NCBI GenBank assembly: GCA_029062165.1
Contig: JAIDQQ010000023.1
Span: forward strand, 124,001-188,000
Length of the DNA stretch: 64,000 nt
Source: Ruminococcus sp.
GTDB taxonomy: Bacteria > Bacillota > Clostridia > Oscillospirales > Ruminococcaceae
Direction: 5' to 3'
Shown: one piece after another, positions 1,858 to 40,429 of the stretch
Layout: the number at the start of each line of letters is the position of its first letter
Position numbering within the stretch: position 1 is the first letter of the stretch
Made by a program: the position numbers and the translations under genes
The notes under the pieces: generated by a model
The model's input: only the letters and a program-made list of their open reading frames with translations
Databases searched by the model: none
Told to the model about the DNA's origin: nothing

Positions 1858-1890
1858 TTTTTCCTCCTCTATAAAAACACTGCTTTTAAT

Positions 1891-1919
1891 ATAATATCAT
1901 ATTTCAGCGTATTTGTAAA
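1891..1919 (-). promoter_or_regulatory. Promoter of the GH25 gene
   Basis: On the minus strand TTTACA is followed after 17 bp by TATTAT, ending about 30 bp before the GH25 start codon. It is back to back with the promoter at 1942. Confidence 0.6.
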
Positions 1920-1941
1920 CAGTTTACGAAAAAAATTTCTG

Positions 1942-1970
1942 TTGACAATAATTTATAATTATGATATAAT
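1942..1970 (+). promoter_or_regulatory. Promoter of the DUF2225-like gene
   Basis: A perfect TTGACA, a 17-bp spacer and a perfect TATAAT lie 34 bp upstream of the ATG at 2004. Confidence 0.8.
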
Positions 1971-2003
1971 CAGCTTATTATAAAATGAAAGGAACGTTTT
2001 TTT

Positions 2004-2648: not shown

Positions 2649-2658
2649 AAACTTTCAG

Positions 2659-2687
2659 AACGGACGGTTTAACCGTCCGTTTTTTTA
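2659..2687 (+). terminator. Intrinsic terminator
   Basis: A stem AACGGACGG / CCGTCCGTT with a 5-nt loop is followed by seven T. It ends the DUF2225-like gene and abuts the convergent tex stop codon at 2685. Confidence 0.85.
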
Positions 2688-5189: not shown

Positions 5190-5192
5190 TGT

Positions 5193-6104
5193 TTAAAATT
5201 TCCTTTCTGTCCATGATGTAAGATGGTCTGCTATGTCGTTCCAGACCTGAATTTTATCTGTTTCGTTGAGAATTTCGTGTCTCATGCCGATAAAAAGTTT
5301 ATGGGTTATATTTCTGTAACCGGCATTTTCAAGGGATTTTATAGCCTCAAAGAATTTTTCTTCCGATAACATACATGGGTCATCTTTACCTGAAATGAAT
5401 CTTACCGGCAAATCGGGATTAGTAGTTGTTTCCGGTGAATAGGCACGTTTCATAAGTCCGGTGAGTGCCTGATAACCACTTAATGTATAGGTAAAATTAC
5501 ATAAAGGGTCATTATTGAACGCCATAACTACTTCCGGATTAGTGCAAATCCATGAATGCGACATATCTTCAAAATTTCTGTTAAGAAACTTTTCAGACCA
5601 TTCACTTATAATATCACTCCGGTAATCCGGTGAAAGTTTCTTTTCGAGTTCAGAAGTGAGCAGGTCTGCAAACGGTGCAAGTCTGCTGTAACACGGCGTA
5701 CCGATTAAAATAACACCGTCAGTATTGTTATACTGCATACAACATCTTGCTATAAGCGAACCCATACTATGACCTATCATGAAATGCGGTACTGACGGAT
5801 ATTTGACAGCAAGCATTTTATTGATATATCCGGCGGTACGTATTAAAAGACCGTCAGGGGATATATCATGTATATAGCCTAAATCGTGTGGTGGGTGTAC
5901 GCTTTTTCCGTGACCTATGTTATCGGCGGTCAGTGTTATAAAACCTTTTTCGCCTAAGAATTTCATGAAATCGTAATAACGTTCTTTGTGTTCGCTCATA
6001 CCGTGAATAATCTGTACTGTAGCTACCGGATTTTCCGGTATGTTCACGGCAATGTGTATTTTAAGATTTTCTATATAATATTCATTGAAATTCTTGTCAG
6101 GCAT
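5193..6104 (-). CDS. Alpha/beta hydrolase of the monoacylglycerol lipase / S33 type
   Basis: This 303-residue protein has the nucleophile elbow GHSMGS, an upstream HGMSEHKERY oxyanion region typical of monoglyceride-lipase-like hydrolases, a late Asp in ISGKDDPC and a late His in GMRHEIL, completing a Ser-Asp-His triad. Substrate is not predictable beyond a lipid ester or similar. An in-frame ATG at 6119 lies on the Shine-Dalgarno sequence itself, so the ATG at 6104, 8 nt after GGAGG, is chosen. It is the first gene of the operon with tex. Confidence 0.85.
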   Translation of the reverse strand: MPDKNFNEYYIENLKIHIAVNIPENPVATVQIIHGMSEHKERYYDFMKFLGEKGFITLTADNIGHGKSVHPPHDLGYIHDISPDGLLIRTAGYINKMLAVKYPSVPHFMIGHSMGSLIARCCMQYNNTDGVILIGTPCYSRLAPFADLLTSELEKKLSPDYRSDIISEWSEKFLNRNFEDMSHSWICTNPEVVMAFNNDPLCNFTYTLSGYQALTGLMKRAYSPETTTNPDLPVRFISGKDDPCMLSEEKFFEAIKSLENAGYRNITHKLFIGMRHEILNETDKIQVWNDIADHLTSWTERKF

Positions 6105-6121
6105 AATAAAATCCTCCATTT

Positions 6122-6150
6122 ATTATAGCATATTTTTCCGGAAAAATCAA
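6122..6150 (-). promoter_or_regulatory. Promoter of the hydrolase-tex operon
   Basis: On the minus strand TTGATT, a 17-bp spacer and TATAAT lie just upstream of the hydrolase start. The spacer begins with the palindrome TTTTCCGGAAAA, which recurs in the tRNA-Thr promoter at 30559. Confidence 0.7.
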
Positions 6151-6162
6151 GTATAATATAAC

Positions 6163-6197
6163 ATATTCCCCCGCCGGTGAGCAGGGGAGTATTTTTT
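6163..6197. terminator. Probable terminator hairpin between DUF4340 gene and hydrolase promoter
   Basis: A 9-bp stem (ATATTCCCC / GGGGAGTAT, one G-U pair) has a 12-nt loop and a T run on the plus side. It lies directly after the minus-strand gene ending at 6201. The U tract in the minus orientation is weak, so termination there is uncertain. Confidence 0.5.
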
Positions 6198-6200
6198 ATA

Positions 6201-7619
6201 TTATTCTTCTTCCGTAAGCGGATTGTTTTTTACTGTCCGTACTATTCCGGCACGTTCGCAGAATGAACTGTAGAAAGACTGTGCGGAATTTTTACCGGTC
6301 AGACGTCCCATGTCGACTATACCGCCACTGTAAATATCATTCTTGAAAATGTAACATTTATCGTTACCGGCATCTACAAAATCAATTTTTATGTCGTCTA
6401 TGTCGTCGAAATGGTATATTGCAGTAAGTACAGGGTCTGAATTGTCGGGAGTAGCTTCAATGTCGGTATCGGTGAATATGAGCGTTGTGAATGAATTATA
6501 GAAATTCTGGAAACAGGTATATATTTCAGAATTTTCCATATCAACCGGTTTATCGTTCATTTCAAGTAATCTGTCTGTCATGTTGAGTGTGAAGGAATCC
6601 TGTATATCACCGAAAATGAAATCAAAACCGTTTATATTATATATTCCGGCACTTGCAATTGAATCCGGCAGGAAGTCAAGAGGTCTGTAGTTTATGAAAT
6701 TAAGGTCTGACGTGTAATATCTTGCCACCTGATTGGAGTCTTTCATAAGAACATAAAGATAAGTCTGATTATTGTCAGTTTGTCCGCCGATAAGGAAATT
6801 TTTTTCTGTACCGTCAATGCCTTTGATAGTCACTTCGGCGGTGGGCTTGTCGAAACCGTATTTAGTCATATCTTCGAGGTATTCTTCAAGTAACTGGTCA
6901 GCTTCAAGACGTGTAAGCGTCGTAAGCATAGAGGAAACAGCAGTCTGGTCAAAAGGCAGTTCGGAATATTCTTCCGACAGTGACCATGCAGAATTTTCAG
7001 TATCGTATGTTATGTCATAAGTAATTCTGCCGTCTTTCTTTACGGTAATCTGTTTTATATCGGTATCGCCGTATGGTATGAGGTCTTTGGCTTTTAACAT
7101 CATACGACTTACTTTCAGTACGCTACCCTGTAACGAACTTACAGTATAAACCTTGTCTTTACCCTCAGCCATGAAATAATAATAATCGTTTGTAGGGGTT
7201 ATATTTCCGACGTATACCGTATAATTTTCCGTACCGTCGGAAACGGTGATAGTTTCTGCCGGATTATCAAGACCGTACATAGCTTTTTTAGCGTCATCGG
7301 GTACGCCATAATTAGTTTCCGCTGTGAAATCCGATACAAGATATAAAAGAGTTTTTATATAATCCTGGTCTATGACAAATTCATTGTTATCGAGTTTCCA
7401 TGTTTCGTCCTCGTATACTACTCTGTAGTGACCGTCCGGACAGTCAAAATTAATTTCAGTAACATTATCGCTGTCGAAACTGAACACTTCATTTTCAGCG
7501 AGTTCGGAAACCTGTTTTTCAGTTTCCTTGTCACTCTTGTTCTTGACCGCAAGAAACGCTCCGAAAGAACCTCCGGCGACTACGAGTAAAGCAACCATTG
7601 CTATAATAACTTTTTTCAT
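6201..7619 (-). CDS. DUF4340 lipoprotein-like partner of a Gld-type ABC system
   Basis: This 472-residue protein has an N-terminal membrane anchor (MKKVIIAMVALLVVAGGSFGAFLAV) and repeated beta-rich units of the DUF4340 type (YRVVYEDETWKLDN, YGLDNPAETITV, YGFDKPTAEVTI). DUF4340 proteins are usually the last gene of clusters encoding an ATPase, an ABC-2 permease and a GldG-like protein, as here. Its stop-start junction with gldG is a TAATG overlap, indicating coupled translation. The transported substrate is unknown. It probably sits on the outer face of the membrane with the complex. Confidence 0.8.
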   Translation of the reverse strand: MKKVIIAMVALLVVAGGSFGAFLAVKNKSDKETEKQVSELAENEVFSFDSDNVTEINFDCPDGHYRVVYEDETWKLDNNEFVIDQDYIKTLLYLVSDFTAETNYGVPDDAKKAMYGLDNPAETITVSDGTENYTVYVGNITPTNDYYYFMAEGKDKVYTVSSLQGSVLKVSRMMLKAKDLIPYGDTDIKQITVKKDGRITYDITYDTENSAWSLSEEYSELPFDQTAVSSMLTTLTRLEADQLLEEYLEDMTKYGFDKPTAEVTIKGIDGTEKNFLIGGQTDNNQTYLYVLMKDSNQVARYYTSDLNFINYRPLDFLPDSIASAGIYNINGFDFIFGDIQDSFTLNMTDRLLEMNDKPVDMENSEIYTCFQNFYNSFTTLIFTDTDIEATPDNSDPVLTAIYHFDDIDDIKIDFVDAGNDKCYIFKNDIYSGGIVDMGRLTGKNSAQSFYSSFCERAGIVRTVKNNPLTEEE

Positions 7620-30245: not shown

Positions 30246-30484
30246 AAAAAAATCCGCAGACAGCATGAAAACTGTCTGAGGACGAATTAAATCGTGGTAC
30301 CACCTCAATTTATCAGAATAAATATTCTGACCTCGATAGACTATAACGTGTCAAAACGTCCGCACCTACTCGGTTTCAATGCGGAAACTCCCGAATGTAA
30401 TTCCCTGTTGTACCTCAACTCCTCGCACCAACCGGAGCTTCTCTGTACAAGCATTTCAACAGGTTTTATCCGTTCACAGTTTGT
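30246..30484 (-). promoter_or_regulatory. Tyrosine T-box riboswitch leader
   Basis: Read on the minus strand, the leader contains an AG-bulge/distal-loop region (AGAGAAGCTCCGGTTGGTGC) and a specifier segment GAAT-TAC-ATTCGG near 30386-30400. This aligns with GAAA-GGC-AUUC of the glyQS T-box and so reads UAC (Tyr). The T-box core GAGGTGGTACCACG spans 30294-30307. A terminator stem TCCTCAGACAG / CTGTCTGCGGA ends in seven T. Uncharged tRNA-Tyr should favour antitermination and turn on the operon ending in tyrS. Confidence 0.88.
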
Positions 30485-30490
30485 AATAGT

Positions 30491-30601: not shown

Positions 30602-30677
30602 GCTGATGTGGCACAGTCGGTAGCGCAACGCCTTGGTAAGGCGTAGGTCGTCGGTTCAAGTCCGATCATCAGCTCCA
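30602..30677 (+). tRNA. tRNA-Thr (anticodon GGT)
   Basis: A complete cloverleaf is visible: acceptor GCTGATG/CATCAGC, D-arm GCAC/GCGC, anticodon stem ACGCC/GGCGT with loop TTGGTAA, T-arm with TTCAAGT, and encoded CCA. Its 3' part is the attachment site of the downstream element, and the integrated copy keeps the gene intact. Confidence 0.95.
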
Positions 30678-30679
30678 AC
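30633..30679 (+). repeat. attL core (left direct repeat)
   Basis: This is the 47-bp copy inside the intact tRNA-Thr, from the anticodon loop to two bases past CCA. It is identical to 40343-40389. Confidence 0.93.
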
Positions 30680-30688
30680 TAATAAAGC

Positions 30689-30733
30689 GAAAAGCAGGCT
30701 TTTTCCATATTCTGGAAATTGTCTGCTTTTTCA
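30689..30733 (+). terminator. Terminator after tRNA-Thr, supplied by the element
   Basis: A long imperfect stem AAAAGCAG...CTGCTTTT with a T tract follows the tRNA. It lies inside the element, so integration replaced the native tRNA terminator (see 40391). Confidence 0.7.
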
Positions 30734-30806
30734 GTCTGTGTAAAATTGTACATTATTTGTACTTTGTTTTCAGAAAAACATAAAATTCGGCTGTAATTCG
30801 TTGCTT

Positions 30807-32036
30807 TTATCCGGTCTTTTCTTCGATTTTTTTCACTGCTTTAACATTTCTTTTTGTGATAAGCATATTCTGTAAAACATTGGCGGCTTCCTCATCAGCT
30901 TCCGCTATGCAGTGTAAATACTTGTTTGTTGTTGATATGTCACCGTGTCCGAGACGTTCCTGAACCTGCTTGAGATTAACTCCACCATACAGGAGCAGGG
31001 TTGCAGAAGTATGACGTAAGCTATGAAATTTTCGGTGTTTCAGTCCGTGCTTTTTCAAGAACTTGCTGAATTGCTTTGTAGGTGTCTGGGAATTCATAAT
31101 TTCGCCGTTGTGCTGAGTAAATAACCAATCTTCATTGTGCCATGTTTCCGCCTGCTCAATAGCCTGTTGTTCTTTTTCAGCTTTTAAAAGCCTAATAAGC
31201 TCAATACAGTAGCTATTTATTGTTATGGTTCTGACTTCATAGTCTTTTGGCGGTTTAATTTCCGTCGGTTGTCCTGATACCTTATAGGCAGAACGTTCAA
31301 CAGTGATTTTGTTTGTCTGATAGTCAATGTCACTGAATTTCAGTCCGACAAGTTCGCCGCATCGGCAGCCGGTCATTATTGCAAGCTGTATCAGCACCTG
31401 AAACTGTAACGGTTCATTTTCCAAACATGACAGCATTTCTGCCGCTTCCTGCTTGCTGAATATCTCAATTTTTGGCATTACTGTTTTTGGAATAGTTAGT
31501 TTTTCAGCATTTGCCGGATTGCTTGAAATAATGTCAAGTTTAACCGCTTGTCTGAATATTGACTGCAAAACCGTAAGTTTTCGCTTAATAGTTGCATTTG
31601 AGAGTTTTGGATTTTCGGTATCTGCTGAACCGTCTTTTTTGAGTTTTACATTGCCCTGTAAGTAGTGAATAAACTGCTGTATGTGCGACGGTTTTATATC
31701 TGACATTTTCATATGACCGAGTAAAGGTACTATCAGATTGTCAATAGTCCTGCTGTAATCGTGCCATGTTCGTGGTGCGAGAACATCTCTTTTAATATCA
31801 AGATACATGATGCAAAATTCAGACAGCTTTATATTACGGTGATTGCCTGTCATGCCATTCTTGCATTGGTCTTCAAAGATTGCCGCTTGTCTGGTTGCTT
31901 CCTTTTCTGCTTGCTTAGCTGTCATATCCTTGTCGGGTTTCCATGTCATCGACTTTACGATTTGTTTTCCATTGGTATCATATCCACACGATACACGGAA
32001 TAAATAGCTATTTTTTTGCTTTCTGATACTTGCCAT
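30807..32036 (-). CDS. int: Tyrosine recombinase / integrase
   Basis: This 409-residue integrase has an N-terminal AP2-like arm-binding domain, a SAM-like core-binding domain (LSEFCIMYLDIKRDVLAPRTWHDY) and the catalytic domain. The latter carries Arg in TGCRCGELVGL, HSLRHTSATLLLYGG, LGHGDISTTNKYLH and thus the R-H-R-H-Y set. It should catalyse integration and excision at tRNA-Thr. Its ribosome site lies in a hairpin (32046-32069), so translation may be controlled. Confidence 0.95.
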   Translation of the reverse strand: MASIRKQKNSYLFRVSCGYDTNGKQIVKSMTWKPDKDMTAKQAEKEATRQAAIFEDQCKNGMTGNHRNIKLSEFCIMYLDIKRDVLAPRTWHDYSRTIDNLIVPLLGHMKMSDIKPSHIQQFIHYLQGNVKLKKDGSADTENPKLSNATIKRKLTVLQSIFRQAVKLDIISSNPANAEKLTIPKTVMPKIEIFSKQEAAEMLSCLENEPLQFQVLIQLAIMTGCRCGELVGLKFSDIDYQTNKITVERSAYKVSGQPTEIKPPKDYEVRTITINSYCIELIRLLKAEKEQQAIEQAETWHNEDWLFTQHNGEIMNSQTPTKQFSKFLKKHGLKHRKFHSLRHTSATLLLYGGVNLKQVQERLGHGDISTTNKYLHCIAEADEEAANVLQNMLITKRNVKAVKKIEEKTG

Positions 32037-32045
32037 TATTTAAAT

Positions 32046-32069
32046 TCCTCCTTGATTTTTCGTGGAGGA
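32046..32069 (-). promoter_or_regulatory. Hairpin covering the integrase ribosome-binding site
   Basis: On the minus strand TCCTCC pairs perfectly with the integrase GGAGGA site across a 12-nt loop, 10 nt before the ATG. This would mask the site and lower integrase translation. Confidence 0.6.
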
Positions 32070-32080
32070 TATGTTATAAT
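32052..32080 (+). promoter_or_regulatory. Promoter of candidate small RNA 1
   Basis: Plus-strand TTGATT, 17-bp spacer and TATAAT point away from the integrase, in a gap between two minus-strand genes. A near-perfect dyad (GGATAT...ATATCC) overlaps the -10 region. Confidence 0.6.
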
Positions 32081-32086
32081 AAGCAT

Positions 32087-32164
32087 GGGGATAGCTTTTT
32101 ATAAAATATCCTTGATTCTTTTTAGAAAATGCCGTCCACCTGCCAATCTGGACGGCGTTTTTTC
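32087..32164 (+). ncRNA. Candidate small RNA 1 of the element
   Basis: About 78 nt lie between the predicted start and an intrinsic terminator (GCCGTCCA / TGGACGGC, 10-nt loop, then GTTTTTT, 32131-32164). No plausible reading frame with a ribosome site is present. Same design as the candidate at 34555. Confidence 0.55.
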
Positions 32165-32168
32165 CTAT

Positions 32169-33812
32169 TTACATATTCTTTATAAGTGGATTTATTTTAA
32201 TACGTTCTTTCGGCTTTCCTCGTTCGCCGTTCCTGATAATTTCAATTCTGATACAGTTCATATCTTCTAAAATCTCTAATGGTGCATCAAATTCATATGC
32301 TCGTAAAATCCTACAAAGTCTAAGTAATTCACTTTTTGATAGTATATTCTTATTTGACTTTTGTAATTTTTTCAGTATGTATTTAGCGTTTTTTATCTCT
32401 GTCGGCTCTGATGCAGTGCCAGACAACGTATTCAGTGCATGGTTTTCTGCCCACGTTGCTATTGCTATTGAGTTTATAGCGGTCTGCCCTGTAAGACGTT
32501 CTGCCGGTTCATGTTCGCATAAATGAAAGATACCGGCTATTCTCAACGCCCTGCCGAATTGTTTTGATGCCCATTCTTTCAGGTTCTCGAATGTTCCGCC
32601 GTCCCTGATTTCTTTTTGTAAGTGGTCATGATAATCAGAGAACAATAATTCTGCTTCTCTATCGCACACTATAATAGGCATATCAGGCGTTGACGGTATA
32701 CGGAGCAGGCGGTTTATTAAGTCACTGTACTGATTTTGAAGTGATTTAGGTATGTCCGGACTGCTCATTTTCAAATATCCTGCTCTGCTTTCAGGAAACG
32801 AAAACAAAAACCTGTGAATAAATCCACGTCCTACAAACTGCCTGTTGTTCATAGCATCTGTAAAGTGTTCCGGCTGTACCATAAGCCCCATAGTAAGCAA
32901 TGGTTTTTTCAGTTCAATATTTTCTTTGGTACGTCTCAGAATGGTATAATTTGCACCGTCATAAGCTTTCAGAAAGATGTTGATATTCGCTTGTCCGTTT
33001 GAATAAATACCGCTTAAAACGTCAAATACACTGCCCTCGTCGTCTATGATGCCGATTTTACCGCCCTGCCTGTACATTTCCATTGCAAGTGCTTCCGGCG
33101 TTGCATCGCTCGCATTCAATACTAATTCATGTTTCCTTTCAAGGCTTGCAAGCTGTTTTGCATAGGTCTTTGCCGCCTGCAAATCTGCTTTCAGTGCTTT
33201 TGCTCTCTTATTCTCCAAAAATGCACGTTCCGTCCTGTATTCCTCGACTTCCGGAGCGTGTATTTTATTATACATTTCCTGAAATTCTTCTACAGGTCGC
33301 ATAAATTCTTTAAGGCTTCCTGATTTTCTTTCACCGGGTGCGGCTATCGTGATTGTATAGATGTTCAATGGCTCTGTGTGGCTGTTTCCCGTATGCTTTA
33401 TGACTGCTTTTCCCTGTACGCATAGTGAAAGGACTGACAAAAGCGGAAGTATTGCCATTTCCGGAACAACCTGCACATAGTCTGATACCGCTTGCAAGTA
33501 GTTACGGAGTAACGGCGGTAAACTCTGCATAGGAAATGGAGCAGGTTTATTTACTTTGTCGAAACTTTGAGGCAGTTCCCAGAGTTCCGGCTCGTTCCAT
33601 TCAACTGCCTTTTGCTGTGCTAATTCTTCAATTTCCTGCTCAATATCAAAGTTCCTTGCTGCTGTCATGATGTTGGTGAAGTAATTCGCACGTTCATAAG
33701 GTTCATGGATTATAAGCATTGTTCCCAGCTGATTATCAATACATGAAATGAATCTGTCTTTTGTTAATGTTCCGTTTTCAATTGCTTCTGTTATTGTTTT
33801 GTTTTCGTTCAC
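32169..33812 (-). CDS. DUF3987 (YfjI-like) replication-associated protein
   Basis: This 547-residue protein matches DUF3987 proteins of mobile elements: PLPPLLRNYLQAVSDYVQVVPEMAILPLLSVLSL, a P-loop-like APGERKSGSLKEF, GKIGIIDDEGSVFDVLSG and RFLFSFPESRAG. Members look like replicative helicase/primase-type ATPases and are common in phages and islands, so a role in replication of the excised element is inferred. The open frame runs to 33848. The GTG at 33812 is preferred because TTAGGAGG lies 10 nt before it, inside the longer frame. Confidence 0.83.
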   Translation of the reverse strand: MNENKTITEAIENGTLTKDRFISCIDNQLGTMLIIHEPYERANYFTNIMTAARNFDIEQEIEELAQQKAVEWNEPELWELPQSFDKVNKPAPFPMQSLPPLLRNYLQAVSDYVQVVPEMAILPLLSVLSLCVQGKAVIKHTGNSHTEPLNIYTITIAAPGERKSGSLKEFMRPVEEFQEMYNKIHAPEVEEYRTERAFLENKRAKALKADLQAAKTYAKQLASLERKHELVLNASDATPEALAMEMYRQGGKIGIIDDEGSVFDVLSGIYSNGQANINIFLKAYDGANYTILRRTKENIELKKPLLTMGLMVQPEHFTDAMNNRQFVGRGFIHRFLFSFPESRAGYLKMSSPDIPKSLQNQYSDLINRLLRIPSTPDMPIIVCDREAELLFSDYHDHLQKEIRDGGTFENLKEWASKQFGRALRIAGIFHLCEHEPAERLTGQTAINSIAIATWAENHALNTLSGTASEPTEIKNAKYILKKLQKSNKNILSKSELLRLCRILRAYEFDAPLEILEDMNCIRIEIIRNGERGKPKERIKINPLIKNM

Positions 33813-33872
33813 TGTATTTTTTCCTCCTAAAACAAACAGCAGACACATAATTAAAATGCCTGCTGTTAATAT

Positions 33873-34052
33873 TCATTTGTGCTGATTTGGTTCAATAGGT
33901 TTGAGGTTGGTATTGATGTAGCATCTGTAACCGCCCGAACGTGCAGTATAAAGACGACTTTTTGTTATGTTTGGAAAGATTTCAGACAACTTTTTATAGA
34001 CTTTTTCTATTTCGTTTTTTTCACCTATGATTCTGATTTCCAAAGTGTTCAC
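33873..34052 (-). CDS. Small DUF3970-like protein of the element
   Basis: A GTG-started frame of 59 residues begins VNTLEIRIIGEKNEIEKV and continues with SGGYRCYINTNLK. The beta-alpha-beta pattern (xxIRIIGExxEIEKVxxxL...YRxYxxxx) is like short DUF3970-type proteins found in integrative elements. AAGG precedes the start by 3-6 nt. It lies 6 bp after the Cys-rich gene and about 60 bp before the DUF3987 start, in the same direction. Confidence 0.6.
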   Translation of the reverse strand: MNTLEIRIIGEKNEIEKVYKKLSEIFPNITKSRLYTARSGGYRCYINTNLKPIEPNQHK

Positions 34053-34058
34053 TTCCCT

Positions 34059-34490
34059 TCAAAATGGCAAATCACCATTTGCTATTATTTCTGCTTCATT
34101 AATATCTGTTCCACCGAAAATTTTTTCAGGCGGTTCGCCCTGCATTGCCCTGTAAAGATTATCAGATTCAACTTCTGCTGCACATTCATTGTAAAAGCAA
34201 TCGTCATAATATTTACAGCCTTTACAGCGGTATCTGTCGAAAATTTCCCTGCATTCGTCATCATAATAGCCGTAATAATCGTCATCGTCATAATAACCGT
34301 AATCGTCATCGCATTCATCGTCTGTAGGTTCGCTGTTGTTATTATTATTGAATTTTAATTCACCGGAGCAGGCAGGATAAAGCCAGCAGTCTTTGCAATA
34401 ACTTTCTTCAAAATACCCCTTGCATACGGATTCATCTTCACTGTCTGGACAGCTTTCATCATGAAATGGTATTGCTTTATGTTCTGTCAT
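34059..34490 (-). CDS. Cys-rich acidic protein of unknown function
   Basis: This 143-residue protein has two Cys clusters (CPDSEDESVC...CKDCWLYPAC near residues 14-41 and CKGCKYYDDCFYNEC near 89-103). They are separated by five Asn and a low-complexity Asp/Tyr stretch (DDYGYYDDDDYYGYYDDE). The clusters look metal-binding. No family recognised. It is part of the minus-strand block of the element. Confidence 0.7.
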   Translation of the reverse strand: MTEHKAIPFHDESCPDSEDESVCKGYFEESYCKDCWLYPACSGELKFNNNNNSEPTDDECDDDYGYYDDDDYYGYYDDECREIFDRYRCKGCKYYDDCFYNECAAEVESDNLYRAMQGEPPEKIFGGTDINEAEIIANGDLPF

Positions 34491-34519
34491 ATTTTCACCA
34501 CCTTTTTTACATTACTGTA

Positions 34520-34548
34520 TTGACTTTACAAAGAGAGTATGCTATAAT
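34520..34548 (+). promoter_or_regulatory. Promoter of candidate small RNA 2 with flanking dyad
   Basis: TTGACT, 17-bp spacer and TATAAT. A perfect 13-bp inverted repeat, ACAAAGAGAGTAT (34528-34540) and ATACTCTCTTTGT (34561-34573), brackets the -10 and start site and looks like an operator. Confidence 0.65.
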
Positions 34549-34554
34549 AAAAAT

Positions 34555-34639
34555 ATCAAGATACTCTCTTTGTTTCAGGAAAGTGTTTTGTGCGGTGCAG
34601 ATTGCTTTATTCGCTGGTGGTCTGCATCGCTCTTTTTTT
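34555..34639 (+). ncRNA. Candidate small RNA 2 of the element
   Basis: About 85 nt lie between the predicted start and a terminator: a 10-bp stem GCGGTGCAGA / TCTGCATCGC with a 19-nt loop and TCTTTTTTT. It lies between two minus-strand genes. It has no convincing coding potential. Confidence 0.6.
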
Positions 34640-35048
34640 ATTCCCAGTCGTCTGGGTTGGTGTACTCTGGATAACGGATTTTTATTGCTTCCCAGTAATA
34701 CGGAGCATACGGACAACAGAAAATATTATCCACCGTATAGTAACTGCTTGTCAGACTATGCATATATCCGTCGTCATCGGTGTAACTTTCGCCGTCGGTG
34801 TCCCAGCCGTTCCAAAGATTGAACGCTAAACGTGTAGTTTTTTTGCTTGTACCGGTCTGCCATGCCTTGTCAAGACTTTCGGTTCTGATAACGCTTTCCT
34901 TGAAGTCGAATATTTCTTCAACGTGCTTTCTGCACACGTCGTCAAGGGCTATCAGATAAGCAACTGACTGGTGGTATACATCTTTTGACTGCATCTTCTG
35001 CATGATTACCCAGAATAAAGTTTCGTGGTATTCGTCCCTGAATTTCAT
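34638..35048 (-). CDS. DUF6075-like protein
   Basis: The 136-residue protein resembles the DUF6075 family of Firmicutes mobile elements: MKFRDEYHETLFWVIM, DVYHQSVAYLIAL, WQTGTSKKTTRLAFNLWNGW, and PYAPYYWEAIKIRYPEY. Function of the family is unknown. Its start overlaps the stop of the upstream gene (TAATG), so the two are co-translated. Confidence 0.75.
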   Translation of the reverse strand: MKFRDEYHETLFWVIMQKMQSKDVYHQSVAYLIALDDVCRKHVEEIFDFKESVIRTESLDKAWQTGTSKKTTRLAFNLWNGWDTDGESYTDDDGYMHSLTSSYYTVDNIFCCPYAPYYWEAIKIRYPEYTNPDDWE

Positions 35049-35314
35049 TAAAAATCATTCCTTTCATTCATTTCCATTGCTGCATCGAATGTTCCGTTTA
35101 TCGCACGTATAAACAGTGTACGTTCCGGAAGTTCATACTGCTTCAGTATGTTTTCAAGCCTTGTTTTTTCGTCCTGCTCCCACGGATTTTCAATGCCGTT
35201 GTCGTCAAGAAACTTAAAGCCTATCCATAATTCCGGAAATACCATGCTGTCACCGGCTTTGGCGTTCCTGACTGTTTCCTGATACTCTTTCATGTATTCC
35301 CAGTATCTTTTCAT
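35048..35314 (-). CDS. Hypothetical small protein of the element
   Basis: The 88-residue acidic helical protein starts MKRYWEYMKEYQETVRNAKAGDS. The ATG at 35314, just after AAGGGGGTG, is preferred over the in-frame ATG at 35332 that precedes the site. It is coupled to the DUF6075-like gene. No function can be assigned. Confidence 0.7.
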   Translation of the reverse strand: MKRYWEYMKEYQETVRNAKAGDSMVFPELWIGFKFLDDNGIENPWEQDEKTRLENILKQYELPERTLFIRAINGTFDAAMEMNERNDF

Positions 35315-35453
35315 GGTTTCACCCCCTTTCAAATTGTTTCACTCTCACACTTACCGTTCTGCTACCGAAAAAAGAAAATTGTCCTTTATTTGTACATTAT
35401 TTTCAAAAAATTTCAGTTCTCAAACGGTTGGCGGTTGCTGTGTGTTCCTGCTG

Positions 35454-35669
35454 TCAGTCCTTTCTGATATAGTTTTGTCTGTCGCAAAGTCCGTCAAGTG
35501 AACAATCAAGAACATCTGCTAAGGCTATCAGCGTATCAAGTGACGGTTTTTTTGTTCCGTTTTCATATCTTGCAAGCGTTACACGATTGACGGCTACTGC
35601 ATTTGATAATTCTGCCTGTGTCATGTTGTGCTTCTGTCTTTCAGCTTTAATCGCTTTACCGATTGACAT
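35454..35669 (-). CDS. Xre-family helix-turn-helix regulator
   Basis: This 71-residue single-domain Cro/cI-type protein carries the HTH MTQAELSNAVAVNRVTLARYENGTKKPSLDTLIALADVL. It resembles the short Cro-like regulators that open lytic-type operons and is transcribed divergently from the larger regulator at 35844. It probably controls the minus-strand block. Confidence 0.88.
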   Translation of the reverse strand: MSIGKAIKAERQKHNMTQAELSNAVAVNRVTLARYENGTKKPSLDTLIALADVLDCSLDGLCDRQNYIRKD

Positions 35670-35705
35670 TTTTACTCACCTCTTTTTATTTTATTTTCAA
35701 GATTC

Positions 35706-35734
35706 TTGACTTTTTGCGTGCCTTATGGTATACT
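35706..35734 (+). promoter_or_regulatory. Promoter of the cI-like regulator
   Basis: TTGACT, 17-bp spacer and TATACT lie about 110 bp upstream of the regulator start. Confidence 0.7.
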
Positions 35735-35744
35735 AAAATAAAGA

Positions 35745-35763
35745 TGTAACCTTATATGTTACA
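35745..35763. promoter_or_regulatory. Operator candidate in the divergent regulator region
   Basis: A perfect dyad TGTAACcttatatGTTACA directly follows the -10. Two smaller dyads follow, GTTAT-t-ATAAC near 35767 and CTAAA-tt-TTTAG near 35779. They are probable binding sites of one or both Xre proteins. Confidence 0.6.
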
Positions 35764-35843
35764 ATTGTTATTATAACTCTAAATTTTTAGAATGTCAATA
35801 GAGATAGCTAAAAAAATTTATACAAATTTCCGGAGGTGTTTAT

Positions 35844-36245
35844 ATGAATTTTGCACAAATACTGGATAAAATAATGACAGAAAAAAACATTTCTAATTAT
35901 GAAATGAGCCGAAAAACAGGTATTTCCGATAGCTTGATAGGATATTGGAGACGTGGAAAAAGTGTACCTAAAGCCGATAATCTTTTAGTTATCTCGAATT
36001 TTTTAGAGGTGTCTGTTGATTATTTGTTAGGAAACACATCTAATTTAGTTCCATCCGTTACACAAACAATAACTGGAAACGATAATAATTATAACATAGC
36101 CTCTAATACAGATAGCTCTGCAAATCGTGATATACCTAAAAGAGATTTAGAACTAATGGAAAAAATAAACTCACTGGACTTTGAAGATTATGCGGAAATC
36201 ATAAACGCTGTTAATCAGAAGCTTAAAAAGAAAAACTCTGCATAA
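35844..36245 (+). CDS. cI-like Xre repressor
   Basis: The 133-residue protein has an N-terminal HTH (ISNYEMSRKTGISDSLIGYWRRGKSVPKADNLLVISNFL, SVDYLLGNT), an Asn-rich linker and a C-terminal helical segment. There is no LexA-type Ser/Lys protease domain, so induction would not be by self-cleavage. GGAGGTG precedes the ATG. It is the probable master repressor of the element. Confidence 0.85.
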   Translation: MNFAQILDKIMTEKNISNYEMSRKTGISDSLIGYWRRGKSVPKADNLLVISNFLEVSVDYLLGNTSNLVPSVTQTITGNDNNYNIASNTDSSANRDIPKRDLELMEKINSLDFEDYAEIINAVNQKLKKKNSA

Positions 36246-36250
36246 AGAAG

Positions 36251-36285
36251 AATCCGTCCGGCATAACGTCGGGCGGATTTTTTTC
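36251..36285 (+). terminator. Terminator of the cI-like gene
   Basis: A 10-bp stem AATCCGTCCG / CGGGCGGATT is followed by seven T. Confidence 0.9.
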
Positions 36286-36549
36286 CCATTTGACAGATTT
36301 TCAGAAAAAATTATTCTGAATACGTGGGAATTTTGGGAAAAAAAGGAATAAAATAATTAAAACCTCTGTATTTCGGCAAAAAATCAACTCTTTTCCAAAT
36401 GGGAAAGTATTGGAAATAAATAATTCAATATGGGAAAGAAATATTTTTTCCATTTTATTCCCTTGTATTCCCATATTACGAAAAGCACTATAAACCGCAT
36501 AGAACAGGCAAATTTAATATTTATTTCCCAAAATTCCCAAAGTTCCTGT
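36283..36549. repeat. Cluster of TGGGAA repeats (iteron-like)
   Basis: The hexamer TGGGAA or its complement TTCCCA occurs at 36283, 36325, 36334, 36400, 36431, 36468, 36535 and 36544 in about 270 bp of gene-free AT-rich DNA. The paired copies at 36325-36339 and 36535-36549 are inverted relative to each other. A replication origin or a multi-site regulator region of the element is possible. Confidence 0.6.
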
Positions 36550-36607
36550 ACTTTCAGAATAAAAAATCAATCCGGAGCAGGTCGCTGTAATTACCTGCCT
36601 GCTCCTG

Positions 36608-36657
36608 CTCTGGTAGCCGTATGGCGTTGTGATGCACGCCCAGAGAACATAGAGCAG
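36608..36657 (+). ncRNA. Conserved-loop hairpin, copy A
   Basis: CTCTGG / CCAGAG closes a loop holding GCCGTA...TTGTGATGCACG. The loop is shared with copy B (38311) while the stem sequence differs. An alternative outer pairing, CCTGCTCT / AGAGCAGG, is also possible. It lies upstream of the gene at 36738. Confidence 0.5.
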
Positions 36658-36737
36658 GTGAATATTTTGATATTTTATTGCATATTCCGGTATAAAATGT
36701 TATAATTTTACTATCAGATTACAAAGGGGGCGTGAAT

Positions 36738-36947
36738 ATGTCTGCACAACAAGCAGAAAAAGAATCAGATGCAGTTGTATTTGAAAAAACAGTTTCAGAA
36801 CTGATTGATAAAATTCAAAAGCTGTCCGTTGCTGACAGATTACATATACTTACTTGCATAGCGGAAACGTTAAACGACATTGAGAACGGAAACATATACC
36901 AGACACGGCGTAGAAATATTTTAGTAACAGTATATCCGGCAAAATGA
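36738..36947 (+). CDS. Hypothetical small protein of the element
   Basis: This 69-residue helical protein starts MSAQQAEKESDAVVFEKTVSEL and has a coiled-coil-like middle (LIDKIQKLSVADRLHIL) and basic end. The ATG at 36738 is 7 nt after AAAGGGGG; the in-frame GTG at 36732 is too close. No family recognised. It is the first of three plus-strand genes between the two conserved-loop hairpins. Confidence 0.65.
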   Translation: MSAQQAEKESDAVVFEKTVSELIDKIQKLSVADRLHILTCIAETLNDIENGNIYQTRRRNILVTVYPAK

Positions 36948-36977
36948 CGGAGCAGGTTAAACAAGGGGGTATTGAAC

Positions 36978-37565
36978 ATGATAACAGTTGAAACTATTGT
37001 TAATGCTTTTATTTCGACAGATAATCATATTTCTGTCTTGTATAAATTGTATGGAGAAAATCGCAAAACTTACACACCATTTGAAAAATTTAAAAATGGT
37101 ATATCAGAATTTTACCGATATACAGGAAATGACACGGATTTTAAGTCATGTTATTCTTTTGAGACGTTCGCCAATTTCTTTTATGATGCAGTCTGCTATG
37201 ATGAAGAGCTTCCGGAGTACATACAGGAAAAATTTATAATTTATTTTAAACGTCCTGAAAAGACGGAAATTGACAAAGAATATATAAATTCTGTACTCCA
37301 TGAAATCAGGGCTTATATAGTGAAGTCAAAACTTGATGAAGCTGTAAAAGACTTCTGGATAAATGATAATGACAGAAAAACAAAAAAAGTCCGTGAACTT
37401 ATATTCCGTCCACACCCTGAATGTAATTCAGCTACACTTGTTAGCCCTGTGATTACGTGGGCTGAGAATCATAACCGAATGACTTACGAATTTATATATA
37501 AAATTTTTGAGTATGGGTACATAACAGGAAAGAGAGACGAAAGAGCAAGAAAGAAAACAATATGA
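36978..37565 (+). CDS. Hypothetical protein of the element
   Basis: This 195-residue soluble protein of unknown function is rich in aromatic and charged residues. It starts MITVETIVNAFISTDNHISVLYKLYGENRK. The ATG lies 8 nt after AAGGGGG. It follows the 69-residue gene by 30 bp. No motif recognised; codon use is AT-rich as in the rest of the element. Confidence 0.7.
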   Translation: MITVETIVNAFISTDNHISVLYKLYGENRKTYTPFEKFKNGISEFYRYTGNDTDFKSCYSFETFANFFYDAVCYDEELPEYIQEKFIIYFKRPEKTEIDKEYINSVLHEIRAYIVKSKLDEAVKDFWINDNDRKTKKVRELIFRPHPECNSATLVSPVITWAENHNRMTYEFIYKIFEYGYITGKRDERARKKTI

Positions 37566-37567
37566 AA

Positions 37568-37583
37568 GTATAACAAGGTATAC
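37568..37583. repeat. 16-bp repeat, copy 1
   Basis: GTATAACAAGGTATAC, itself partly palindromic, lies directly after the gene ending at 37565. An exact inverted copy is at 37741 and a 15/16 direct copy at 38142. Confidence 0.75.
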
Positions 37584-37740
37584 TTTTATTTATGCCAGAG
37601 CAGGCAGAACGGAAATAAAATCATTGACAATTTCAGCTTGTAGTTAGTTCGTCTGATATTCAGATACTTGATACACCGCTTAGGAAGCAATGGTCTAACA
37701 GAAATCTGTCTATTTGATTTTTACTTCCAATAATTTGAAT

Positions 37741-37756
37741 GTATACCTTGTTATAC
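37741..37756. repeat. 16-bp repeat, copy 2 (inverted)
   Basis: GTATACCTTGTTATAC is the exact reverse complement of 37568-37583. The 160 bp between them hold no gene. Confidence 0.75.
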
Positions 37757-37876
37757 TTTGTTGTCGATTCTGTATGTGTAAAGTTGTGCATCAAAGCTAC
37801 ACTGTACAGGGGGAGTGCTGAAAAGTTCCGCTGAATATGATATGATTATTGTAAAAATATGAATGGGGGTAAAAGT

Positions 37877-38086
37877 GTGGAGACGGTTAATAACAACGCT
37901 TCCGGAAATACTATTGACATTGATTGTAGTAATATTGGAAACGTGGGTAATATTGCAGCGACTACAGTTAATATCAATATACAATCATATGGCATATTAT
38001 CGGAATTTATTTCATATATGAATACTTTGCCGTTTGAAAAGCAAGTGAAAATAATGCAGTTTGCACTTAAACAAAAGAACGGCTGA
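37877..38086 (+). CDS. Small Asn-rich protein of the element
   Basis: This protein of 69 residues has an N-terminal half made of Asn/Thr/Ile repeats (NASGNTIDIDCSNIGNVG...TTVNINIQS) that looks like short beta strands. A helical C-terminus follows (FEKQVKIMQFALKQKNG). GTG at 37877 is 7 nt after GGGGG. The in-frame ATG at 37859 lies before that site. Function unknown; the pattern recalls leader regions of small element-encoded effector or regulator peptides. Confidence 0.5.
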   Translation: METVNNNASGNTIDIDCSNIGNVGNIAATTVNINIQSYGILSEFISYMNTLPFEKQVKIMQFALKQKNG

Positions 38087-38141
38087 AAAAAAAGAAATCT
38101 ATATTTTTACAGTACAATATGATACATCAATAAAAATGAAT

Positions 38142-38157
38142 GTATAACAAGATATAC
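38142..38157. repeat. 16-bp repeat, copy 3
   Basis: GTATAACAAGATATAC differs by one base from copy 1. It lies downstream of the gene ending at 38086. Confidence 0.65.
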
Positions 38158-38310
38158 TTGTAATGCGGATTTTCTTCACCTGCTCCACCATTTTGAATTG
38201 TCAGAAAAAATAACAAACGGTGTAACGAAAACAGAAACGGAAGCGACTGCAAAGACCGGAATAAACAGGGCAGGGGACTTGAAAATAAATTCACAATTGA
38301 ATAACATTCT

Positions 38311-38375
38311 TTGTTGGTTCTCGCTCTGATTGCCGTACTTGCTTTGTGATGCACGTCCAACAAGGAACGGAGCAT
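38311..38375 (+). ncRNA. Conserved-loop hairpin, copy B
   Basis: TTGTTGG / CCAACAA closes a loop containing GCCGTA...TTTGTGATGCACG. It matches copy A in the loop, while both stem strands have changed together. Confidence 0.5.
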
Positions 38376-38411
38376 GAAGAACATCTGCCCTAAGTACAGT
38401 TTAAAGGGTCT

Positions 38412-38447
38412 CAAAGTATCATAAAGTATCAGGTTTATGATACTTTG
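38412..38447. repeat. 14-bp perfect inverted repeat
   Basis: CAAAGTATCATAAA and TTTATGATACTTTG are separated by GTATCAGG. Three AAGTATCA-like units are present. There is no T tract, so it is more likely a protein-binding or partition-like site than a terminator. The 38087-38604 stretch holds no gene. Confidence 0.6.
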
Positions 38448-38591
38448 ATATATAGAAACCCCCTGCTCCGTCCGGTTCTTTTATCGGGAAAACGTCCGAA
38501 AAAATAAAAAGGGATTCTATGGGACAATACGGTTATTGACAATAAAAGCAGGGTTTTCAGAAAATTTTTAAAGGTATTCAGGCAATAAAAA

Positions 38592-38620
38592 AGACCGTCC
38601 GGAATCATTCAGACGGCTTG
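38592..38620 (-). terminator. Terminator of the DUF3486 block
   Basis: On the minus strand an imperfect CCGTCTGAA / TTCCGGACGG hairpin ends in TCTTTTTT. It overlaps the last codons of the gene ending at 38605. Confidence 0.65.
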
Positions 38621-39168
38621 CAGTTTAACTCTTTCTGTTGGTTTTTTATGAAATTTTTTAGTTCTCTGTACAGTTTTGGATTATCTTCTGACATTATTTC
38701 AAATAGTGTTGACATAAATTCATCTTGACCGTTTTCAAGTATGGATTTATTTTTTATTTCAATGTTTCTTTTGTATGCGACGGCTCTTGTTAAAGCAATA
38801 GTATTTTTTATAATAGCATCTATTCCGATTTCCTGTAACTGTTCGCCCGAAAGGTTGTTAATCTGTTCAAGAAGCTGACCGCATAGCAAACGTGTAAGCG
38901 GTTCTGTAAAATCAATGTGGTTATAGTTTTCCGTTTCGTCCATGATTGCCCTGAAATTTGCCTGTGTCATTCTGATACTCTGTATTGACTGCATTAAATT
39001 GGCGGCGTATCTCTGCACTGCTGAAATTGACACACTGTTTCCGGATTCTTTGATATACTCTACTATTTCACGGTATGTAAAATCAGCTTTAATCATTTCG
39101 TCAACAGTTCCCTTGATTTCAGGCGGTAATTTGTCAATGGCATAATGTTTTCTTGTATGCTTTCCCAT
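38605..39168 (-). CDS. DUF3486 protein, phage Mu gp27-like
   Basis: The 187-residue protein has the DUF3486 start pattern: HYAIDKLPPEIKGTVDEMI, TYREIVEYIKESG, VSISAVQRYAANL, a small HTH-like domain followed by helices. Mu gp27 belongs to the late packaging region and DUF3486 proteins are taken as small-terminase-like. It is the only packaging-type gene of the element. It follows two small genes in the same direction. Confidence 0.7.
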   Translation of the reverse strand: MGKHTRKHYAIDKLPPEIKGTVDEMIKADFTYREIVEYIKESGNSVSISAVQRYAANLMQSIQSIRMTQANFRAIMDETENYNHIDFTEPLTRLLCGQLLEQINNLSGEQLQEIGIDAIIKNTIALTRAVAYKRNIEIKNKSILENGQDEFMSTLFEIMSEDNPKLYRELKNFIKNQQKELNCKPSE

Positions 39169-39181
39169 ATCGTTCCCCCTG

Positions 39182-39511
39182 TCAGATGTCTATGCAGTTA
39201 TCTTCAATAATTCCTCTTAATACCTGAATCCCCTTTGCTGTAAGTGCTGTTTCAGTATTTCTGAATTTATCTTCTTTCAGGTCAACAGGATTTCCGCTGT
39301 TGCAGTCCATAAGTTTTATATAATCGCTTTCATACAAGTATCTAATACTTTCAGTAAATGAATTGTGGTCTGTTGTTTGTCGGAAAACAAATTCAAGGCT
39401 TGATAATCCGCATCGGCTGTCCTTAATAACGTTTAAAGTCCTTAATATTGTGCCGTTCATGTGAAAGAATTTACTGTCTGCAATGTCTTTCTGAATTTTT
39501 TCGGCGTTCAT
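39182..39511 (-). CDS. Hypothetical winged-helix-like protein
   Basis: This 109-residue protein looks like a winged HTH: helices in KFFHMNGTILRTLNVIKDSRCGLSSLEFVF, then SFTESIRYLYESDYIKLMD and LTAKGIQVLRGIIED (a phage-type ALTAKGIQVL end). It sits in the gp27 block, as small HTH proteins do in Mu-like regions. Stop and start overlap with the gene at 39508 by 4 bp. Confidence 0.6.
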   Translation of the reverse strand: MNAEKIQKDIADSKFFHMNGTILRTLNVIKDSRCGLSSLEFVFRQTTDHNSFTESIRYLYESDYIKLMDCNSGNPVDLKEDKFRNTETALTAKGIQVLRGIIEDNCIDI

Positions 39512-40050
39512 AATATTCCCCCATTCGTTTTACATGATATGCCTATATCCCTTTCCATATTTTCAGACAGCAGACATTTAATTCTGCCCTCTAACCGTAT
39601 TTTTTGTGTTCTGCTGAGATACGGAGATACTTTTTCAATGAAGTCAATAAATGTGCGGTTATAACCTGTATCTCGTTTCATCGGCTTGCATTGTCTTGTT
39701 ATATCCGGCTCATTGACTGTAATATTTTCCGGCAATTTAGCATTTATAAGTGTCTGCAACAGTCTGAGACCGACATTCAGACCGTTTTCAAATGCGTTTT
39801 GTGCAGCAATGCAGAAATAGCATTGCATATCATTATCAAATTTTCTCTTAAAATCTTCATCAAGTGCTGTTGCATTAGTTATCCGTTCTTGCAGTGACGT
39901 TAACCGTTCTTGCAGTGACGTTAATCGTGCATCATCTTCCGGACTGAATACTTCACAATGTTCACGGTCAAAAATCTGAGATATTACCATATCGCATATA
40001 GTTTGTATGTTTATATCCCAGTCCCTGACAAATTTTTCATAAAATCCCAT
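39508..40050 (-). CDS. Hypothetical protein with heptad repeat
   Basis: This 180-residue soluble protein of unknown function contains a tandem seven-residue repeat (RLTSLQE twice, then RITNATA). It is coded by a 21-bp direct repeat near 39885-39930 and probably forms a short coiled coil. It is the first gene of the three-gene block with DUF3486. Confidence 0.6.
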   Translation of the reverse strand: MGFYEKFVRDWDINIQTICDMVISQIFDREHCEVFSPEDDARLTSLQERLTSLQERITNATALDEDFKRKFDNDMQCYFCIAAQNAFENGLNVGLRLLQTLINAKLPENITVNEPDITRQCKPMKRDTGYNRTFIDFIEKVSPYLSRTQKIRLEGRIKCLLSENMERDIGISCKTNGGIL

Positions 40051-40342
40051 TTTTCAACCCCCACAATCAATATTTAAATACCTTTCAAATGGCATTTAAA
40101 TAGCATTTAAAAAGTCTTTAAAAATATGTACTTTCAATTAGTTTAAAAATTAAATTATAATTTTTTAGCTTTATTATGCAATCTAAAGTACAATATAATT
40201 ATATCATGAAAGGAAGTTAAAGTCAATGTACCATATTTTTTGTACTTTATTTAGTACTTATTATTTCAAAAAAGAAAAGTAAATCACCTATTGAGTATAA
40301 GGAAAAAGGCTATTATACGTTATCAGAATGCTTGTATACACT
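40051..40342. other. AT-rich end region of the element
   Basis: No gene is visible. It holds repeated GCATTTAAA units (about 40092-40115) and several GTACTTT / AAAGTAC copies between 40127 and 40258, possibly integrase arm or regulator sites next to attR. Confidence 0.4.
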
Positions 40343-40389
40343 TTGGTAAGGCGTAGGTCGTCGGTTCAAGTCCGATCATCAGCTCCAAC
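40343..40389 (+). repeat. attR core (right direct repeat, partial tRNA-Thr)
   Basis: This is a 47-bp perfect copy of the tRNA-Thr 3' part with CCA. The bases before it do not form a tRNA 5' half, so this is not a second gene. Confidence 0.93.
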
Positions 40390-40390
40390 A

Positions 40391-40429
40391 AAAAGCATTT
40401 CCGATTATACCGGAAGTGCTTTTATTTTT
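40391..40429 (+). terminator. Original tRNA-Thr terminator, displaced by the element
   Basis: AAAAGCATTTCC / GGAAGTGCTTTT with ATTTTT follows attR. Before integration it would have followed the tRNA directly. Confidence 0.7.

Follow-up and report, generated by a model that had tools for sequence, protein, structure and literature searches.

A putative satellite of Mu-like transposable phages integrated in a tRNA-Thr gene of Ruminococcus

The 64,000-nucleotide stretch of Ruminococcus sp. DNA analyzed here (contig JAIDQQ010000023.1, positions 124,001 to 188,000; the window) carries a 9,757-bp island at positions 30633–40389, within a tRNA-Thr(GGT) gene. Judged by its genes and its relatives, the island is probably a phage satellite that parasitizes Mu-like transposable phages and redirects the packaging motor of its helper.

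In terms of its boundaries, the island is flanked by a direct repeat of the 3′ half of the tRNA gene, the second copy of which lies 9,710 bp downstream of the first. The repeat spans 55 nt at 95% identity (30628–30682 and 40338–40392) and holds an exact 47-nt core, the att duplication that an earlier, sequence-only reading of this DNA had pointed out. A search of the same genome with the tRNA stretch returned four matches: the stretch itself, the attR copy (98%), and two others (75% and 82%). In two genomes of the genus the 47 bp occur as a single copy adjoined by the two flanks seen in the window: L184 (G334:C55; flank identity to the window of 95% on the left and 90% on the right) and L185 (G386:C67). 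Because of the 47-bp repeat and these uninterrupted sites, the stretch at 30633–40389 is a precise insertion. Two further candidates for empty sites were not counted, one being broken by N (L182) and the other having extra DNA beside the site (L183). Other, shorter elements are seen at the same tRNA-Thr in L187 (G318:C16) and L186 (G359:C2), with a second 45-bp att copy 4.2–5.6 kb off.

The features that bear most directly on the reading are listed here (L numbers denote loci and G numbers genomes used in the comparisons).

30602–30677, plus strand: tRNA-Thr (GGT), the integration target, its 3′ half forming attL (ARAGORN, Rfam)
30633–30679, plus strand: attL core, 47 bp, exact direct repeat
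30807–32036, minus strand: tyrosine integrase, 409 amino acids (aa) (PF00589, 6e-29); 95% identical in L079 and 49% in L085
32169–33848, minus strand: DUF3987 replication helicase, 559 aa (PF13148, 3.5e-90; PHROG 2373, DNA helicase)
35454–35669, minus strand: Cro-like Xre regulator, 71 aa (HTH_3, 5e-17), first gene of the leftward operon
35844–36245, plus strand: CI-like Xre repressor, 133 aa (HTH_3, 8e-9; PHROG 8)
36246–36572, plus strand: conserved noncoding block with repeated TGGGAAA, a candidate replication origin
38605–39168, minus strand: terminase small subunit (TerS), 187 aa (PF11985, Phage_Mu_Gp27, 8e-15; PHROG 426, terminase small subunit, 2e-24), of the satellite clade
39182–39511, minus strand: p26 (name coined here), 109 aa (PHROG 25462 over its full length), encoded upstream of terS
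39508–40050, minus strand: orf180, 180 aa, at the head of the terS operon; a relative (34%) in the transposable element L113
40343–40389, plus strand: attR core, 47 bp, exact direct repeat
30633–40389, both strands: 10 copies of GGAGCAGG/CCTGCTCC over the whole island

Fifteen open reading frames (ORFs) of the island, picked as likely genes from among overlapping, mechanically called ORFs, were scanned with Pfam and 10 ORFs with PHROGs; by the gene set adopted here the island is ~75% coding. The leftward genes are, in order, the Cro-like regulator, a 94-aa ORF, a DUF6075 protein, a Cys-rich 143-aa protein, a 59-aa ORF, the DUF3987 helicase, and the integrase, which adjoins the tRNA. The CI-like regulator, divergent from the Cro-like one and likewise an HTH_3 protein, leads rightward into ORFs of 71, 197, and 75 aa, and at the far end orf180, p26, and terS run leftward again. 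Families for structural (head and tail), lysis, relaxase, coupling-protein, and secretion functions had no match among the scanned ORFs, which also contained no recombinase and in which no large terminase (TerL) or capsid gene was found. Across the window, tblastn with TnpA, TnpB, TerL, portal, and capsid markers likewise gave no match. Since the weighty Pfam matches of the 133-aa CI-like repressor are to HTH only, no peptidase (self-cleavage) domain was found in it. In these respects (integrase, divergent Xre regulators, repressor lacking a self-cleavage domain, absence of head, tail, lysis, relaxase, and secretion genes), the sequence-only reading is borne out. The Stl-like derepression by a helper-phage protein that it expected would be a prediction from the missing peptidase domain. 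Its replication-type DUF3987 protein does belong to that family, but only the helicase part is present; the CHC2 and TOPRIM primase half, found in L079 (793 aa) and L085 (801 aa), is lacking.

The 187-aa protein previously described as Mu gp27-like and of packaging type is, by its family matches, a terminase small subunit. Relatives of this TerS occur in 23 of 297 genomes of the family (the genome of origin counted) and in 27 of 125 genomes of the genus. Where the surroundings are of phage type, p26 and TerS are typically accompanied by Mu-type transposases A and B, the Mor activator, a NusG-like protein, a large terminase, and a portal, and we take these loci to be Mu-like transposable phages. 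In such phages of Oscillospiraceae (FP_Mushu, MG711460; L041, L117, and others), p26 precedes terS as it does in the satellites, and the p26–TerS pair is common to phages and island; the Mor activator is shared with the satellite L079. Among the markers tested, the island has p26 and TerS in common with the Mu-like phages and resembles them weakly in its regulators, whereas it has no match to their transposases A and B, large terminase, portal, or head genes, nor to the NusG-like gene that L041 and L117 also carry. By the same markers the island is not itself a Mu-like phage, as transposases A and B, TerL, and structural genes gave no match. A megablast of the island against phage records gave no match, and scans of viral contigs recovered no relative of DUF3987 or orf180 and one locus for TerS. 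The sequence evidence suggests Mu-like transposable phages as the helper class.

The TerS phylogeny sets the island and its relatives apart from these phages. In a maximum-likelihood tree of 66 TerS sequences, loci were labeled as phage when a NusG-like or large-terminase marker lay within 9 kb (47 rows, including the hybrid L096 by its NusG-like gene), as noTerL when TerL, NusG, and transposase markers were absent nearby (15 rows), or as tnp_sat when transposases but no TerL lay nearby (4 rows); TerS sequences shorter than 150 aa or broken (e.g., L059, L143, and L144), L061–L063, and loci repeating a genome already included were left out. All 15 noTerL rows, together with L113 and L145, in which terS lies beside transposases, form one clade (97/93) inside the phage TerS; several members sit on short contigs. 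Residues Y9, A10, F87, P90, and C96 mark 15 of the 17 clade members and occur in at most 10% of phage rows; of the five, L131 and L135 have only A10. Of 25 TerS pairs compared, 18 gave a finite dS and have dN/dS ratios (NG86) of 0.04–0.15, several of the finite dS values being high; in the other 7 pairs dS is saturated. With this purifying selection, terS seems to be retained for use in elements in which its normal partner, the large terminase, was not found. A division of the kind seen in Staphylococcus aureus pathogenicity islands (SaPIs), with a changed DNA-binding part and a kept TerL-binding part, was considered and is unsupported, as no single TerS region alone separates satellites from phages.

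The gene set recurs intact elsewhere in the genus. DUF3987 relatives are present in 38 of 125 genus genomes, and TerS accompanies them in 3 of the 20 stretches fetched: L079, L085, and the hybrid L096. L079 (G405) is att-bounded, 8,022 bp long, and lies in the same tRNA-Thr with the same 47-bp core; its integrase, TerS, and p26 are 95%, 99%, and 88% identical to those of the island, and integrase dN/dS between the two is 0.048. L085 (G334) is bounded by a 79-bp repeat at a tRNA-Ala, is 8,122 bp long, and is more diverged (integrase 49%, TerS 50%). Both encode an integrase, a primase-helicase, divergent regulators, p26, and TerS, and in neither was a TerL match or a structural gene found, so that neither is a full prophage or an integrative and conjugative element (ICE) of which the island would be a decayed copy. 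Directly before p26, L079 also encodes a homologue of the Mor late activator (PF08765, 3e-14), which may be either an activator of its own or one shared with the helper. L111 has a TerS of 82% identity and a copy of the tRNA-Thr att at 92%, and its contig shows no integrase. On the partial contigs L116, L118, L121, L129, L131, and L135, a TerS of the satellite clade lies next to genes for DUF6075, a resolvase, an integrase, or a primase. The replication genes vary, being CHC2-TOPRIM-DUF3987 in L079 and L085, CHC2-TOPRIM-VapE in L121, and TOPRIM-D5/DUF5906 in L118.

Two further arrangements were seen among the TerS loci. L113 (G378:C73, ~56–7241) spans 7.2 kb and has terminal inverted repeats TGTAATGGGTCATGCAAAA, recognized by eye. 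Along with Mu-type transposases A and B it encodes Mor, p26, a satellite-clade TerS, and a major head protein (PHROG 422, 5e-61); no large terminase, portal, tail, or target duplication was seen in it. By its genes, L113 looks like a transposable, capsid-encoding satellite. In L096 (G301:C24:815200–835190), a Mu-like early region with p26, TerS, and a NusG-like gene is joined to satellite sequence at tRNA-Thr, which consists of an integrase and the C-terminal 79 residues of a DUF3987 protein, both of satellite type.

The distribution of potential helpers is consistent with this assignment. Among the 125 genus genomes, 7 of the 11 with a satellite-clade TerS also have a phage-type TerS, versus 14 of the 114 others (Fisher one-sided p = 3e-4); excluding the genome of origin and the hybrid genome, the counts are 5 of 9 versus 14 of 114 (p = 0.0045). 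In these counts the hybrid G301 was included, G379 was included by its transposases, and weak hits in G304 and G376 were scored as none. The genome of origin itself contains, at L044 (G000:C13), a cluster of late genes that comprises Mor, p26, TerS, TerL, a portal, and head genes, with no transposase match in that 20 kb, as well as a Mu-like early region (C16:341499–343466), a TerL at C17, and contig-end fragments. Late clusters similar to L044 are also seen in L138, L140, and L141, with TerL 84–95% alike to that of L044 and no transposase match beside it; some of these contigs end early. The L044-type cluster may be a remnant or may encode a domesticated particle. In Ruminococcus callidus and further members of the Ruminococcaceae, chromosomal DNA is reported to be packaged in particles, in the manner of gene transfer agents (PMC12946183), so that particle sequencing is feasible in this group.

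We propose the following course of events. The integrase inserts the island at the 3′ half of tRNA-Thr, a step shown by the precise insertion and the uninterrupted sites. In the resident state the island would be silent, with the CI-like repressor opposing the Cro-like regulator, as their layout suggests. Upon activity of a Mu-like helper, the leftward operon (regulator, DUF6075, DUF3987 helicase, and integrase) would excise the island and replicate it as a circle, probably from an origin just 3′ of the repressor gene. The conserved block in this position is 78% identical to L111 and, over one part, 69% identical to L116; TGGGAAA occurs five times within 350 bp in the window and six times in L111, and TATCCCA six times in L116, counts that have no chance control. 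The orf180–p26–terS operon would then supply the satellite-clade TerS, which, with p26, may select satellite DNA and pass it to the large terminase and procapsid of the helper. Multimers for packaging may be made and protected by the host AddAB and RecA, a role suggested by the very high density of the octamer GGAGCAGG and the lack of a recombinase among the scanned ORFs. Mu-like phages replicate by transposition and package integrated copies, which raises the question of how a circular satellite of a transposing helper offers a packageable substrate. Chi-like enrichment is a testable answer.

Ten satellite stretches totaling 79,285 bp contain the octamer GGAGCAGG 99 times, versus 15 expected at the density of each host, and each of the ten alone gives p = 0.0014 or less, the value for the island itself being after the fact. 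Three of the pooled stretches (the island, L079, and L085) have att boundaries; the remaining seven were cut from contigs and may include some chromosomal DNA. The L111 stretch was counted up to position 7400, past its att at 6732, and L078, L080, L081, and L113 were examined and not pooled. By script score GGAGCAGG is the top 8-mer in 9 of the 10 satellite stretches and the fourth in L118; it does not rank first in L113, L078, L080, or L081. The genome of origin has 860 copies in 2.72 Mb (~1 per 3.2 kb) versus 40 for the reversed control, a ratio of ~22, and 13 copies lie in the window outside the island. The Mu-like phage loci of the genus have 43 copies in 284 kb and the transposable L113 has 2 in 7.3 kb. 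With its excess over the control and its lineage-specific occurrence within the genus, GGAGCAGG is a candidate for either a Chi or an uptake motif in this group of Ruminococcus, and we infer that it may be a Chi-like octamer of the host. According to Bobay et al. (PMC3784561), Chi is abundant in the host and enriched in lambdoid phages that lack recombinases; the island is similar in its high density of a host octamer and in that no recombinase was found, although those are Escherichia coli phages with a proven Chi, whereas here the elements are satellites and the role of the octamer is a proposal.

Among described systems, the Gram-positive phage-inducible chromosomal islands (PICIs), such as the SaPIs, are like the island in having an integrase with att sites, divergent regulators with no self-cleavage domain found, a replication gene, and a TerS of their own, with no structural or lytic genes found (PMC6092414). 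Their layout and size differ. In that account int lies on the repressor side with xis, pri-rep, and ori opposite, whereas here the integrase and DUF3987 lie behind the Cro-like gene in the leftward operon, opposite in strand to the CI-like gene; PICIs typically measure ~15 kb (PMC6092414), versus 9,757 bp for the island and 8,022 and 8,122 bp for its relatives. PICIs also have att sites that prophages never use, and the tRNA-Thr site of the island is occupied in other genomes; induction by a helper phage, packaging in its particles, and interference with it, further PICI traits, would be predictions for the island. The island further differs in its TerS, which is of the Mu-like phage family, and in its host, Ruminococcus. 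The likeness to PICIs drawn by the sequence-only reading holds to the extent that the genes support a PICI-like satellite; by layout and size the island is not a PICI in the strict sense. PICIs have been described in Gram-positive cocci and Gammaproteobacteria, with one Mu-family helper, in Pasteurella (PMC6092414). That PICI, PmCI172 of Pasteurella multocida (PMC6092414 and PMC6893505), is like the presumed situation here in being a satellite with a Mu-family helper; unlike the island, it is Gram-negative, has a capsid-protein homologue, and gives small capsids in experiment, whereas no capsid gene was found in the island, which is known from its genes. With a Mu-family helper of a PICI already known, the Ruminococcus satellite would be a variant on that arrangement. 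In the literature searched, we found no account of such satellites in Ruminococcus beyond passing mentions of PICIs, and nothing on terS- and integrase-bearing satellites of Clostridia, on Mu-like PICI satellites of the gut, or on satellites with a transposable, Mu-like prophage as helper; this is a weak negative, most subscription journals lying outside the coverage.

No capsid gene, the feature of capsid-forming satellites that is present in L113, was found in the island, and its scanned ORFs contain neither the relaxase nor the secretion system of ICEs and integrative and mobilizable elements (IMEs). P4, the satellite of P2, combines an integrase with primase-helicase replication, as do the relatives of the island. 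Unlike the island, P4 is not known to encode a TerS and makes use of the cos site of P2. Its delta protein is a homologue of the P2 late activator Ogr, to which the Mor homologue of L079, resembling the late activator of the presumed helper, may be likened.

Several alternatives were weighed against a satellite of Mu-like phages. That the island is a decayed Mu-like prophage in which terS and p26 survive by chance is very unlikely: p26 and TerS are indeed homologous to those of Mu-like phages, and the L096 hybrid speaks in favor of this reading, but the island has an integrase and att sites and no transposase match, its TerS falls within the satellite clade and under purifying selection instead of being scattered among phages, and the gene set is att-bounded at two tRNA sites. 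An IME or ICE relative, moved by the conjugation of another element with terS as cargo, is unlikely. In its favor, DUF3987 and tyrosine integrases also pair up without TerS in other stretches of these genomes (e.g., L087, L092, L095, and L097), and packaging of the island is a prediction; against it, the scanned ORFs encode no relaxase, coupling protein, or secretion family, and relatives with dissimilar replication genes (DUF3987, VapE, and D5/DUF5906) retain p26 and TerS.

We also give little credence to a phage-interference island in which TerS and p26 serve mainly as decoys that block helper packaging and the island itself is transferred rarely or not at all. Competition with the helper TerS would be possible for a TerS that is maintained in the absence of TerL, and the window copy lacks the primase half; the retention of integrase, att, regulators, and replication genes alongside TerS, however, speaks against it, and a 99% identical TerS at this tRNA in a different species, together with diverged relatives at tRNA-Ala, points to movement. 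Uptake sequences are genome-wide and lineage-specific, and so is GGAGCAGG, with the genomic excess over its reversed control given above. The octamer could accordingly be a DNA-uptake or segregation motif, the island spreading by natural transformation and not in particles. This too is improbable, as TerS is under selection and the density of GGAGCAGG in the islands that bear TerS greatly exceeds that in the Mu-like phage loci.

A number of observations weigh against a functional satellite of Mu-like phages. Excision, induction, and packaging of the island are predictions from its genes. Relative to L079, the window DUF3987 lacks ~240 residues (CHC2 and TOPRIM) with the frame kept; the predicted TerS model is poor (pLDDT 65), with no PDB match at E 0.001 or better; and no pac or cos site was identified in the island. 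No DNA-binding part that by itself sets the satellites apart from phages emerged when TerS regions were compared. In the tree, two loci labeled as TerL-less transposable elements lie outside the clade, L057 with a distant TerS and L139 cut by a contig end, and the contig of L145, a clade member, encodes a large terminase from a different family farther along; this terminase lies behind a stretch that looks like an IS110 transposase and may or may not belong to the same element. An intact helper is not seen in the genome of origin, where Mu-like genes lie on broken contigs or in early-only or late-only pieces. Those relatives that carry names are metagenome-assembled genomes (MAGs), and relatedness and MAG gaps may contribute to the co-occurrence of the two TerS types. 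The octamer was picked after it had been sighted in this island, its putative Chi role is a proposal from motif density, and it is lineage-specific; only some genomes of the genus have an excess of GGAGCAGG, which weakens the case for a Chi shared by the whole genus.

A broader proposal can be put forward as a tentative possibility, namely that these elements are a Ruminococcus lineage of satellites of Mu-like phages that share a TerS clade and have exchanged all else. Such a lineage would comprise a tRNA-integrating kind and a Mu-type kind with a capsid gene (L113), the former living as circles that have to be turned into multimers for packaging, while the helper replicates by transposition; loaded with the Chi octamer of the host, it would depend on host AddAB recombination to be packaged.

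The remaining features of the island are as follows.

33873–34052, minus strand: small ORF, 59 aa; relative in L078 (68%)
34059–34490, minus strand: acidic protein rich in Cys, 143 aa, matched in part in L079, L080, L121, L131, and L135
34638–35048, minus strand: DUF6075 protein, 136 aa (PF19552, 1e-42); relatives in L078, L079, L081, L116, L131, and L135
35048–35332, minus strand: ORF, 94 aa, no function assigned; match in L116 (69%) and a short match at the L147 contig end
36603–36660, plus strand: TGATGCACG element, copy 1, with inverted arms of the CCTGCTC/GAGCAGG type seen by eye
36732–36947, plus strand: small ORF, 71 aa, no Pfam family of weight
36972–37565, plus strand: 197-aa protein, no credible family in Pfam, PHROGs, and further profile scans
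37859–38086, plus strand: small protein, 75 aa; 89% in L116 and 80% over a short part in L131
38310–38385, plus strand: TGATGCACG element, copy 2, similar to a stretch directly 3′ of terS in L079 (7216) and in L116

The TGATGCACG element was considered as a packaging site and rejected, no link to TerS having been found. Its contexts are alike in the window (two copies), L079, and L116 and looser in L135; at the other scanned loci the matches look like isolated nonamers. Inverted copies of AAGTATAACAAGGTATACTT, 95% complementary, lie at 37565–37586 and 37738–37759 and are perhaps regulator sites. Within orf180, a tandem 21-bp duplication is found at 39878–39919, with copies 95% alike. Among the 8 Rfam matches listed, only a T-box and the tRNA exceed their family thresholds; the T-box leader (30275–30486, minus strand, 1.6e-28) lies ahead of a CrtO-like gene that flanks the island.

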